Shown here: in pieces, positions 41,775 to 45,231 of the stretch
Position numbering within the stretch: position 1 is the stretch's first letter
Layout of the letters: each line of letters starts with the position of its first letter
Source: Butyrivibrio sp.
Lineage (GTDB): Bacteria > Bacillota > Clostridia > Lachnospirales > Lachnospiraceae
Assembly (NCBI GenBank): GCA_017615275.1
Contig: JAGAAO010000099.1
Coordinates: 1 to 64,000, forward strand
Reading direction: 5' to 3'
Length of the DNA: 64,000 nucleotides
The notes under the pieces: model-generated
The model's database searches: none
What the model was told of the DNA's origin: nothing
What the model saw: only the letters and a program-made list of their open reading frames with translations
Program-made: the position numbers and the translations under genes

Positions 41775-43514
41775 ATGAATAGCAGAAATAAAGAGAATTT
41801 TTTAAGCATATTATGTATCCTTGTTATGGTGTTGGTCTTTGGGATACCGTATTATCAGAAAGGTTTTGTTCAAGGTGGAGACGGATCTTTTCATATGGCG
41901 AGAATAGCTAGCTTGGTGGCTTCGATCAAGACAGGAGTATTTCCTCCAAAGATAAGACCTATATTGATGAAATCATACGGATATGCTGTGGGTATTTTCT
42001 ATCCGGATTTTTTTCTTTATTTTCCGGCAGCGATAAAAGCGCTGTTTCATCTTGATGTTTTTATGGCATGGAAGATTTATTTTTTCATTTTCTTGTTTGT
42101 TACAGGTATAGTTAATTGGAAATGCATCACGAAGCTCACAGATAACAGGTTCCTTGGTATTTTCGGAGCACTCATATATATAGGAGCCAATGCATGGCTG
42201 TGGGATTTCTCGTTCTGTGGCGGACGCGTGGGAACAATTCATTCAATGATGTTCATCATGCTTACGATAATCGGACTTATTTTGTCACTTAGAGATGATA
42301 AAAAAGGATATCTAATCTACGGAGTTGGACTTATCTCAACACTTTTGTCTCATCATCTGGACTTTACCATGTTGATGTTGTTTATCTTTGTATATATTAT
42401 TCTTAGTTTTGATGTTGTGATAAAGAATTACAAAATACTTCTGAGAATAATAGGCGTAAGTTTCATAGATCTGTTTGCAAGTACGGCATATTGGCTTCCT
42501 GCAATGGAACAGGCGGCAGATCAGAAGATGAAGGCTTTGTATGACAATATCTATGAGGCGAAAGATAATATATTCTTGTTTTCAAGATTCTATAAAGATC
42601 TCCCGATGCTTCCATATACAATAATGTACCTGTTATCGGTTGTGCTGTTCATAGGCGTATGTGTATACAAGAAGAAAGTAAGCAAAGACGCAGTAAAAAT
42701 GAATATTATGCTTATTTTCTTTGTGTGGTTTACCACTTCGCATTTTATCTGGGAGGGTATTATAGGAGAGGCATTAAGTTTCTTCCAGTATACATACAGA
42801 ATTATGGCGATAAATGAAGCACTGTTTGTTTTGGCTATTATTTTCAATCTGCAGCATATATATAACTGCATGCAGGATAAATTCGTTAATATAAAGAGTC
42901 CTTATTATGTAGGGCTTGCAGTAAGTATGGTTATAGCATTGGCATCATATCCTGTTTTAAGCGATATGTTTACAAGATATCTTTCTATTACACATATAGA
43001 TGAACATGAGCTTCTCTATGACAGATACAACGGAGCAGCAGGTCAAGAGTGGCTTCCGGTTGAAACTCAGAGTTTTGCCCTGACTTCGCCCGAAACAGCA
43101 AAAGCCGATGACGGTTCCGGTGCGGACGGAGTCAAATATGATGATGGAAAATGGTTTGATGTCTGGCTGTTGATGGATAAAGAGTACTATGATATGCCGT
43201 ATGTGTATTACAAGGGATACCATGCTTATCTTTTGGGCGATGACAACGAGGTAATCGAGGAACTTAAAGTCGGAAAGGCAGAAGAGGACAACGGCCTTTT
43301 GAGAGTGTTCATTCCAAAGGATCATGGCGAAATCGGCCATGTGATGGTGACATACAGGAAGATTGCAATACAGAAGATTTCGTATGTTATAAGCTTTATT
43401 ACAGTAATAAGTTTAATGGTTTGCTTTGTGCTGGAGAAACGACGATTGAAGGGTTCTTTACGTGAGAAGCTGCTTGATTTATATTCCAACTCACGTAAAA
43501 ATCTTGCTTCTTAA
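41775..43514 (+). CDS. PTPS_related-type polytopic membrane protein (GT-C-like)
   Basis: 579 aa and ~12 helices, same family as the 35438 gene: QGGDGSFHMARIASLV followed by GYAVGIFYPDFFLYFPAAI. A late outside loop (~400-530) precedes a last helix. The start has GGAG 8 nt upstream. The final ~20 codons contain the first two units of the regularly spaced repeat array, so the basic C-terminal tail (REKLLDLYSNSRKN) is encoded by array sequence. Last gene of the membrane-protein operon. Confidence 0.7.
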   Translation: MNSRNKENFLSILCILVMVLVFGIPYYQKGFVQGGDGSFHMARIASLVASIKTGVFPPKIRPILMKSYGYAVGIFYPDFFLYFPAAIKALFHLDVFMAWKIYFFIFLFVTGIVNWKCITKLTDNRFLGIFGALIYIGANAWLWDFSFCGGRVGTIHSMMFIMLTIIGLILSLRDDKKGYLIYGVGLISTLLSHHLDFTMLMLFIFVYIILSFDVVIKNYKILLRIIGVSFIDLFASTAYWLPAMEQAADQKMKALYDNIYEAKDNIFLFSRFYKDLPMLPYTIMYLLSVVLFIGVCVYKKKVSKDAVKMNIMLIFFVWFTTSHFIWEGIIGEALSFFQYTYRIMAINEALFVLAIIFNLQHIYNCMQDKFVNIKSPYYVGLAVSMVIALASYPVLSDMFTRYLSITHIDEHELLYDRYNGAAGQEWLPVETQSFALTSPETAKADDGSGADGVKYDDGKWFDVWLLMDKEYYDMPYVYYKGYHAYLLGDDNEVIEELKVGKAEEDNGLLRVFIPKDHGEIGHVMVTYRKIAIQKISYVISFITVISLMVCFVLEKRRLKGSLREKLLDLYSNSRKNLAS

Positions 43515-43686
43515 GCTGAATCTACGTGAATGGTTCCGCCTTTTTGCATAATCTCACGTAAAAAATTCGGATTTCCGGTGATTTCTACGTGAATCAGTTC
43601 TATTTTTCACCGCACTTCACGTAAATGTTGCAAATTACAGGCAAAATTTACGTGAGGTGCTCTTATTTTCTGCAGTGTCTCACGTA
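43459..43686. repeat. Array of eight alternating, regularly spaced 8-bp motifs
   Basis: Cores TACGTGAR at 43459, 43523, 43586 and 43649 alternate with YTCACGTA at 43490, 43553, 43616 and 43679. Spacers within each pair are 23, 22, 22 and 22 bp and those between pairs are all 25 bp, so the unit repeats every ~63 bp and neighbouring motif centres are ~31.5 bp apart. Spacer sequences are unrelated except that the within-pair spacers have a T-rich middle. The variable base matches in three of four pairs (G with C, A with T) but not between pairs. The first two units lie inside the gene ending at 43514, the rest in the intergenic region. Confidence 0.9.
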
Positions 43687-43907: not shown

Positions 43908-44114
43908 TGTGTAGAGCACTTGACGAGGTATTATCGAGTCTAGTGCGAACCATACAAGTTCACTTGGCGAGGTTTTTTCGAGCATAGTGAAGCTTGTATA
44001 TGAAAAAGCTCCGCAGCTCGCGGAGAGGTAATTAATTGCTTCGCAATACCGCTCGCGCGCCAGCATTTTGCAAGCAAAATGCTTATCTGTGTAGAGCACT
44101 TGACGAGGTATTAT
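43908..44114 (+). repeat. Modular repeat bounded by 27-bp direct repeats
   Basis: The 27-bp sequence starting TGTGTAGAGCACTTGACGAG and ending GTATTAT occurs at 43908-43934 and, identically, at 44088-44114. Between them is a related block (CACTTGGCGAGGTTTTTTCG at 43961 onward) and several hairpins, the best being AGCATTTTGC-AA-GCAAAATGCT (44062-44083). A diverged copy lies in reverse at 22441-22570. No ORF. Confidence 0.7.
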
Positions 44115-44148: not shown

Positions 44149-44193
44149 AAATAGGTGAGCGTCGGGAAAGGCGTTTGCAAGGAGATGATGACT

Positions 44194-45231
44194 ATGGAAA
44201 ACAACAAATTTATTCTTATAGACGGAAGTTCCATGCTGGTTACAAACTACTACGGAAATCTTCCGAAGGCACTTTTATTTGAAAAAGATCCTGAGAAAAA
44301 AGAAAAACTCTATTCTCAGATTATGCATAACGAAAAGGGACAGTATACGAACGCTATGTTCGGAATGATGCGTGTGATCTTAAAGATCATCAAGGAGCAG
44401 AATCCTACGCATATGATGTTTGCATTTGATATGACAAGAGATACGTTCAGGAGAGAGAAGTACCCGGATTACAAGGGGAACCGAGGAGAGACACCCGAGC
44501 CATTGAAAGAGCAGTTTGAGAATATGGAGAAGCTTCTTGAAGATATCGGATTTCAGGTTATGTATGATATGAAGTATGAGGCGGATGATATTGTAGGAAG
44601 TGTAGCTGCCAAGTTTGAGAAAGAAATTCCTTCATACATTATCACCAAAGATCACGATTATCTTCAACTTGTAAATGACTACACAAGGGTGTGGCTCATC
44701 CAGACAAAGCAGGAGACCGCAGATGAACTTCAGAGCAAGTATGGTGCGGAATATGGCTATAACAGTAAGTTTGCGGCTATACCCGACAAGGCATTCGAAG
44801 TAACTCCACCTCTTTGTCTTTCTGAATACGGAGTACGCCCTGAGCAGATTCCGGATCTCAAGGGTATCCAGGGAGATCCGAGCGACAATATTCCCGGAGT
44901 TAAGGGAGTCAGCAGCGCAGCAATGCCTCTTCTTGCAAGATACGGAACTATTGAAAAAGTGTATGAAGCAATTGACGCCTGCGCTGATGCAAAGGAGCAG
45001 AAGGCACTTAACACCATGTGGAAAGAGGAACTTGGAATTTCGAGAAGCCCACTCAAAGCAATGATCCAATACAGGGATCTTGCACTTCTTTCAAAGGATC
45101 TCGCCACTATCAGAAAAGACTACGAATTCGGAAAATCACTCGATGATTTCAAAATAAGTATTAATACGGAGAAAGCCAAAGAAGAGTTTGAGAGATATGG
45201 CTTCAAGTCCCTTATAGACAAGATTCCGTAA
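44194..45231 (+). CDS. 5'-3' exonuclease (Pol I N-domain type)
   Basis: Stand-alone flap/5' nuclease like the N-terminal part of DNA polymerase I, 345 aa. PIN-like nuclease motifs: ILIDGSSML (metal Asp), FAFDMTRDTFRREKYPDYKG, YEADDIVGS and ITKDHDYLQLV; the helix-hairpin-helix DNA clamp is IQGDPSDNIPGVKG. The ATG at 44194 is 9 nt after AAGGAG; the frame could extend upstream to 44155 but without a site. A role in removing RNA primers or repair flaps is known for the family. It is a single gene with its own promoter. Confidence 0.9.
   Translation: MENNKFILIDGSSMLVTNYYGNLPKALLFEKDPEKKEKLYSQIMHNEKGQYTNAMFGMMRVILKIIKEQNPTHMMFAFDMTRDTFRREKYPDYKGNRGETPEPLKEQFENMEKLLEDIGFQVMYDMKYEADDIVGSVAAKFEKEIPSYIITKDHDYLQLVNDYTRVWLIQTKQETADELQSKYGAEYGYNSKFAAIPDKAFEVTPPLCLSEYGVRPEQIPDLKGIQGDPSDNIPGVKGVSSAAMPLLARYGTIEKVYEAIDACADAKEQKALNTMWKEELGISRSPLKAMIQYRDLALLSKDLATIRKDYEFGKSLDDFKISINTEKAKEEFERYGFKSLIDKIP

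Follow-up and report, generated by a model that had tools for sequence, protein, structure and literature searches.

A stretch of 64,000 nucleotides of Butyrivibrio sp. (Lachnospiraceae; assembly GCA_017615275.1, contig JAGAAO010000099.1, positions 1 to 64,000 of the forward strand), referred to below as the window, carries an array of short inverted repeats at 43459..43686. We identified this array as a probable solo copy, standing apart from the gene, of the cognate target array of P0001, a protein encoded elsewhere in the same genome. The array is 228 bp long and consists of eight TACGTGA half-sites, strictly alternating in orientation and about 31.5 bp apart, at 43459-43465 (+), 43491-43497 (-), 43523-43529 (+), 43554-43560 (-), 43586-43592 (+), 43617-43623 (-), 43649-43655 (+) and 43680-43686 (-); the gaps between successive half-site starts are 32, 32, 31, 32, 31, 32 and 31 bp. 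The half-sites form four units of two facing half-sites (><) with a period of 63-64 bp. Unit 1 (43459..43497) reads TACGTGA-25-TCACGTA, units 2 (43523..43560), 3 (43586..43623) and 4 (43649..43686) have a spacer of 24 bp, and the three junction spacers (43498..43522, 43561-43585 and 43624-43648) are each 25 bp long. A preliminary description made from the letters of the window had reported eight alternating copies with 22-23 bp inside each pair and 25 bp between pairs. All eight were found where it had placed them and, counted between 8-mers, the spacers indeed measure 23, 22, 22 and 22 bp within pairs and 25 bp at each of the three junctions.

When the 64 kb were scanned de novo for chains of inverted sites in alternating orientation (at least five sites, gaps of 21-43 bp), this array was the sole chain with a score of at least 29. 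The count of the bare 7-mer is not extreme: the window contains ten exact TACGTGA sites, eight of them inside the array, against 4.9 expected, and this number was reached by 6 of 100 shuffles. It is the arrangement that is extreme. No member of the partner protein family is encoded within the window.

The assembly to which the window belongs (3.18 Mb in 99 contigs, 85% complete) contains 33 exact matches to the TACGTGA/TCACGTA pair pattern and none to a reversed control pattern. These pairs group into nine arrays on nine contigs, at unrelated places, and 71 of their 79 half-sites are exactly TACGTGA. One of the nine (C1:24313) lies 55 bp upstream of the gene for P0001, a protein of 266 aa encoded at G000:C1:24658-25455, and the other eight are solo arrays. 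In a mechanical listing of open reading frames (ORFs) the solo arrays fall at the ends of long ORFs or in the gaps between them. No family gene occurs on their contigs (the seven matches in the genome are all elsewhere) and no family ORF was present in the fetched loci. The window array and the solo arrays at L015 and L017 are homologous across the array only and not past its ends, the window array and L015 being 73% identical over 237 bp. Compared pairwise, these three differ on average by 0.012 in the half-sites and by 0.415 in the spacers. Because the half-sites differ by 1.2% and the spacers by 41.5%, we read the half-sites of these gene-less arrays as being under strong selection.

The link between array and gene was examined in relatives. 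All 13 close orthologs of P0001 (68-100% identical, P0001 included) have a TACGTGA array that ends 21-90 bp before the start codon. Arrays are present in 13 of 13 genus genomes that have a close ortholog and in 13 of 66 that lack one (Fisher p 4e-8; G084, with a 63% identical fragment, was counted as lacking one). The association extends to the rest of the family. A de novo search of 1.1 kb upstream of 105 family members, for any motif and with an array called at a score of at least 29, detected an alternating array in 66 of them and in 0 of 315 shuffles. These 66 of 105 include the 13 P0001 orthologs (53 of 92 without them), the repeated loci L194 and L179, L184, and the irregular array of L133. 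As a control for place, arrays were found upstream of 65 of 98 members and downstream of 1 of 102. For 57 gene-side arrays the median distance to the start codon is 127 bp, and the largest array seen has 29 half-sites. The half-sites differ among paralogs, with examples being CAACAG, CTGCCTA, TGCCACC, TACGGTT, GACGTAA, TGATACG, ACGTACA and TACGCGC. The CAACAG class occurs in 14 of 79 genus genomes (reversed control 0) and its arrays are found upstream of family genes in G004, G005, G019, G036 and G071. A further 14 CAACAG arrays, from G004, G005, G006, G071, G072 and G080, all lack a family ORF within about 3 kb on each side, and solo arrays are thus not peculiar to TACGTGA. As a separate observation, L222 carries, some 1.7 kb past the start of the gene, an 11-site alternating array with a period of 61 bp and the seed TTTATCA, which falls outside the helical classes described below.

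In the six loci that were read for gene order, a conserved gene that we take to be guaA is followed by the array and the P0001-type gene. The possibility that gene and array together form one transposon was rejected: the left end that the loci have in common, near L065:855, falls within the conserved end of the guaA-like gene, and the locus therefore looks inherited in place.

The period of the arrays falls into discrete classes. The median period over two steps is 51.5-54 bp in 32 of 57 arrays, 63-65 bp in 21, 74-76 bp in three and 68 bp in one weak array (L202, score 29, which was kept in this count and left outside the tree and Mantel tests). The class means of 53.25, 63.69 and 75.0 bp, divided by 5, 6 and 7 turns, correspond to 10.65, 10.62 and 10.71 bp per turn. 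For each array the better of two detection settings was used; with the first, 1 of 840 shuffles scored at least 28 (maximum 29), and with the second 0 of 315 reached 29. The set of 57 excludes proteins shorter than 200 residues and omits 15 loci, namely the near-identical P0001 orthologs L121, L123 and L125-L130, the repeats L139, L179 and L194, L184 (internal stop), L133 (irregular gaps) and the fragments L152 and L153. Where many copies of a protein have to occupy one face of double-stranded DNA, a spacing tied to the helical turn would be expected; for an RNA element it would not. A protein scaffold whose sites all face the same side of the DNA, one of two possibilities raised in the preliminary description, is supported by these periods of 5, 6 and 7 turns and by the position of arrays upstream of nuclease-like genes.

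Both half-site and period follow the protein. Across 56 members, protein identity correlates with half-site similarity (Mantel r 0.43, 0 of 2000 permutations) and with period class (Mantel r 0.50, 0 of 2000 permutations), and the period classes are mostly grouped on the protein tree, with the exceptions of L155 (52) and L137 (76) among the rows with a period of 63-65 and of L171 (63.5) among those of 52-53. In a regression of half-site similarity on separate parts of the protein, residues 37-80 (4 of 500 permutations) and 1-36 (14 of 500) explained it best, with 206 of 500 for residues 81-150 and 133 of 500 for the C-terminal residues 151-266. This is only suggestive of the N-terminal part being the one that may read the DNA.

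P0001 matches no NCBIfam model, and no Pfam model above the cut-off. Its C-terminal 110 or so residues (153-264) match the C-terminus of the PADLOC profile PDC-S68 (E 3.6e-27) and, weakly, a PD-(D/E)XK profile (E 0.0022). The profiles of these PDC-S68 phage-defence candidates are about 1200 positions long, and the N-terminal half of P0001 lies outside the match. In an alignment of 59 of the 68 listed loci, the invariant residues include R159, S160, K161, E163, P193, D194, F195, E209, H210 and K226, which we take to represent a putative PD-(D/E)XK-type site. Among the 56 array-bearing members E163, D194 and E209 are present in 56 and K226 in 55. The family appears to consist of proteins of about 265 aa in which a putative PD-(D/E)XK-like nuclease domain at the C-terminus follows an N-terminal region. 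No convincing sequence relationship to a solved structure was found (best E 0.024, to N-terminal helices of an unrelated enzyme), no transposase was seen among the Pfam hits of the 59 members (in the 25 of 40 families shown), and PHROGs gave weak matches only.

Family members occur in 69 of 79 genus genomes, with up to nine per genome, and in 110 of 329 genomes of a Lachnospiraceae sample. In a sample of 378 genomes of the phylum, long matches are limited to Lachnospiraceae, and in the other 11 genomes with a match it covers the C-terminal part only. A phage origin was considered and rejected, as eight IMG/VR loci match the C-terminal domain only; one 4.2-kb human faecal 'phage' record encodes a near full-length relative (35% identity) and has no array at a score of 29 (best 22). 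A plasmid origin was likewise rejected, since four plasmid matches also cover the C-terminal domain only. In these four (NZ_CP104897, NZ_CP115765, NZ_CP007144 and NZ_CP013539) the nuclease-like domain lies within proteins annotated as AAA family ATPase.

The preliminary description had pointed to related genomes as the place to look for the same spacing, and there it recurs: of 79 genus genomes, 26 contain a three-site pattern. In a family sample it is found in 5 of 397 genomes, two of them from the genus itself. The GTDB genome set contains 55 stretches with the pattern, of which 49 are titled Butyrivibrio, Pseudobutyrivibrio or Lachnospiraceae, four come from one 'uncultured Clostridiales' metagenome-assembled genome, and two are outliers (Aliidiomarina and a planctomycete) that we take as chance matches. 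Spacers in the 69 arrays collected measure 23-25 bp within pairs and 23-26 bp between pairs (25 or 26 bp in 165 of 172). Only contained copies were removed from this collection, so that homologous arrays are counted repeatedly. One Markov shuffle of 451 kb contained no arrays. Arrays of the related half-site TACGTGG, some with longer palindromic units, were seen at G033:C32:17502-17838, G033:C225:26279-26444, L085 and L075, and G033 has no family gene at 1e-10.

In 63 of the 69 arrays the first half-site is > and the last is <, which makes the >< pair the repeated unit. The earlier observation that the variable base is matched within pairs does not generalise: it is matched in 3 of 4 units in the window and, among 84 non-redundant units, in 29 against 24.9 expected (z 1.0). 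These 84 units and 63 junctions, which remained after near-identical ones had been removed, were also used to weigh the second possibility raised for the array, namely tandem RNA hairpins in transcripts that act as an attenuator or stability element. Either strand of the array folds strongly (z -6.8 and -8.4), and the first spacer base of the junctions pairs in 38 of 63 cases against 27.0 in shuffles (z 2.9, the highest junction value). Such excess folding is what the inverted 7-mers alone give, and the spacers show no consistent mirror covariation (z -4.8 to 2.3 in units and -2.6 to 2.9 in junctions). A search of the 64 kb against Rfam gave nothing at the gathering score, arrays stand upstream of genes as well as downstream, which does not fit hairpins in the 3' end of a transcript, and helical quantisation is a property of double-stranded DNA. 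A structured RNA was therefore rejected, the folding excess being real and the spacers neither consistently covarying nor matching Rfam; we regard RNA hairpins as very improbable. In both unit and junction spacers the middle is A/T-rich and C and G are more frequent at bases 7-9 counted from the half-site, a composition that would fit bent DNA.

The window array starts inside the end of a coding gene, as had been described. It begins at residue 562 of an ORF of 579 aa without a Pfam hit (41775..43514, + strand) and overlaps its 3' end, with unit 1 doubling as late codons. Coding constraint as the cause of the motifs was rejected, since the ORF overlaps the first unit only. Homologs of the ORF were examined in 15 genus relatives (those with loci at hand, of 29 other rows; L293 has an internal stop). 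Their alignments stop at residues 540-569, their own stop codons follow at most 32 residues later, and none of the 15 has an array downstream. Given that the array begins at residue 562 and the homolog alignments end at 540-569, this comparison places the array at the natural end of the gene, as a lineage-specific addition. The next gene downstream (44155..45231, + strand) encodes a 5'-3' exonuclease (PF02739, PF01367) and is a neighbour outside the system; it lies beside none of the 15 homologs, which thus occupy different chromosomal places. Inspection of the flanks by eye revealed no terminal inverted repeats or target-site duplication around the array. A 25-bp direct repeat, TGTAGAGCACTTGACGAGGTATTAT, follows the array downstream, in intergenic DNA at 43910-43934 and 44090-44114.

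Two routes by which arrays appear to spread are visible in relatives, array-sized copying and carriage by an element resembling a miniature inverted-repeat transposable element (MITE). The first is seen in G106, in which a solo array is a 245-bp, 96% identical copy of an array on another contig and ends 7-9 bp beyond the array. The second G106 array precedes a gene remnant of which only the first codons are left, and shares 95% identity with the array in front of the intact L109 gene. No empty site for the recent solo copy was found among 35 genomes of its genus. Arrays that stand before P0001-type remnants were noted at L112:768-1011 (first codons, then a jump to a later part) and from L100:7783 onwards (first codons only). 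The second route is a 308-bp MITE-like element with terminal inverted repeats CAATGTCATTTAGATAAG and a six-site array. Copies were found in several Butyrivibrio-type genomes (L064:7442-7748, L095:2111-2417, L081:512-819, L073:4917-5225 and others), including two identical copies in one strain, with clear 9-bp target duplications at no fewer than two of them (L073 and L081). No transposase was matched to the element; having its own terminal repeats, it probably has a transposase of its own.

These observations bear on the possibility that the P0001 family is a domesticated or selfish mobiliser, in which the nuclease-like protein actively places copies of its arrays at new sites between genes, the solo arrays being the non-autonomous products. 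Proteins of a known type, the REP-associated tyrosine transposases (RAYTs), are thought to copy repetitive extragenic palindromes (REPs) to new sites in this way. The homology of solo arrays over the array alone, the array-sized copy in G106 with its source beside a gene remnant, and the conservation of the catalytic-looking E163, D194, E209 and K226 are all in line with such a role. Set against this, inspection of the solo-array flanks by eye showed neither a target-site duplication nor a constant insertion site, the only clear transposition is that of the MITE-like element with terminal repeats of its own, and the half-sites of solo arrays are better conserved than passive debris would be. 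We consider a mobiliser possible, if on the unlikely side.

In the reading that we prefer, P0001 would bind each half-site, with one dimer on each >< unit, and neighbouring units would assemble on one face of the DNA. The array beside the gene would serve as an operator through which the protein may regulate its own expression, and the solo arrays would provide further binding platforms. An alternative is that of a plain DNA-binding factor, for which the arrays represent a regulon or nucleoid-organising sites and nuclease activity is irrelevant. The promoter-like distance of the gene-side arrays, the helical phasing and the location of solo arrays mostly outside long ORFs agree with it. The eight solo arrays, however, have no neighbour of evident common function and no common orientation in the ORF listing, in which genes were not annotated individually, and a plain binding factor would not need invariant catalytic residues; we judge this alternative to be rather unlikely. 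Another possibility is a sequestered nuclease in genetic conflict, with arrays that hold or mark self DNA, each paralog being orthogonal, and a nuclease directed at foreign DNA or active upon degradation of the host's own. It would account for the conserved nuclease-like residues, for several paralogs per genome with different half-sites, for the constraint on solo half-sites, and for a C-terminal domain that matches a phage-defence candidate and occurs in AAA ATPase proteins on four plasmids. Gene neighbours vary in the loci viewed, however, and no modification enzyme or constant partner was noticed there, in a survey that did not include a systematic scan for defence islands. We regard this possibility as unlikely.

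Comparison with known systems places the closest arrangement among the RAYT/REP systems, to which the P0001 system does not belong. The published account describes a Y1 transposase related to IS200/IS605 and a palindromic repeat with a GT(A/G)G head that occurs in alternating clusters known as BIMEs (bacterial interspersed mosaic elements) (PMC2817692). Like RAYTs, the P0001 family is a single-gene protein family in which each member has a cognate repeat, present at the gene and dispersed between genes. Of the features compared with that account, two are shared, namely regularly spaced clusters of alternating orientation and coevolution of repeat and protein (here the Mantel r of 0.43, 0 of 2000), and three are not. 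The protein described there is a Y1 (HUH) tyrosine transposase and the one found here is PD-(D/E)XK-like; TACGTGA is not self-complementary, lacks a GT(A/G)G head and forms no palindromic hairpin; and the gene described there is flanked by two inverted repeats, whereas arrays here stand upstream (65 of 98) and almost never downstream (1 of 102) of the gene. In addition, the period here is fixed to whole helical turns, and this genome has nine arrays.

CRISPR (clustered regularly interspaced short palindromic repeats) loci resemble the arrays in having regular repeats, varied spacers and, beside some, a nuclease-like gene. CRISPR repeats are direct repeats on one strand, separated by unrelated spacers. 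The repeats found here are 7 bp long and strictly alternating, the spacers are related between arrays and the half-site differs among paralogs. No cas genes were noticed among the ORFs listed near arrays, in the absence of a dedicated search, and CRISPR was rejected on account of the alternating repeats and related spacers. In Tn7, TnsB binds multiple sites at the transposon ends and TnsA is a PD-(D/E)XK protein. Tn7 shares with the P0001 system the multiple sites for one protein and the presence of a PD-(D/E)XK protein; unlike Tn7, no second end or transposase partner was seen here, the array is one-sided and solo arrays lack genes. For parS/ParB and matS/MatP, a few conserved protein sites are scattered round the chromosome, in contrast to a phased multi-copy array at each site, a separate sequence for each paralog and a nuclease-like domain. 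No account of such arrays or of the protein family was found in titles and abstracts of the open-access literature, a scope that excludes most subscription journals and bioRxiv.

Several points weigh against identifying the window array as a solo copy of the P0001 target array. It shows neither of the two spread signatures and no insertion signature was seen. TACGTGA arrays occur in 13 genus genomes that lack a close ortholog of P0001, some of them as MITE copies or beside gene remnants. No array reached the cut-off upstream of 39 of the 105 family members, some of which lie near contig ends and some of which have weaker chains. The link between protein and half-site is weak below 60% identity (r 0.21, 0 of 2000 permutations), and the putative nuclease label rests on a strong match to PDC-S68 candidates of unproven function, a weak profile match and a recognised motif. 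Nevertheless, comparison across genomes demonstrates the pairing of gene and array, the tracking of protein phylogeny by half-site and period, and the constraint on half-sites. On these sequence comparisons we put the probability of that identification of the window array at about three in four.

On a broader and more speculative level, Lachnospiraceae may carry an undescribed class of element, made up of an orthogonal one-gene PD-(D/E)XK-like protein and its own phased array, with solo arrays that would hold or mask the nuclease on self DNA in genetic conflict and with several such pairs per genome. We offer this proposal tentatively and consider it rather doubtful. The identification of the window array as a target of P0001 has consequences of its own. 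A large protein family without a Pfam or NCBIfam model (as tested for one member) would gain a readable DNA target, predictable for many members from the upstream sequence, and common rumen and gut bacteria would hold many natural and probably orthogonal protein-DNA pairs. The arrays also provide a clear case of helical phasing, at 5, 6 and 7 turns, recognised by comparison alone. A set of dispersed repeats in Butyrivibrio genomes would thereby be explained. As with REP and RAYT, for which the question is likewise open, one may ask here for what reason bacteria retain a protein together with scattered repeats of its own, and the arrays may offer a route to an answer.

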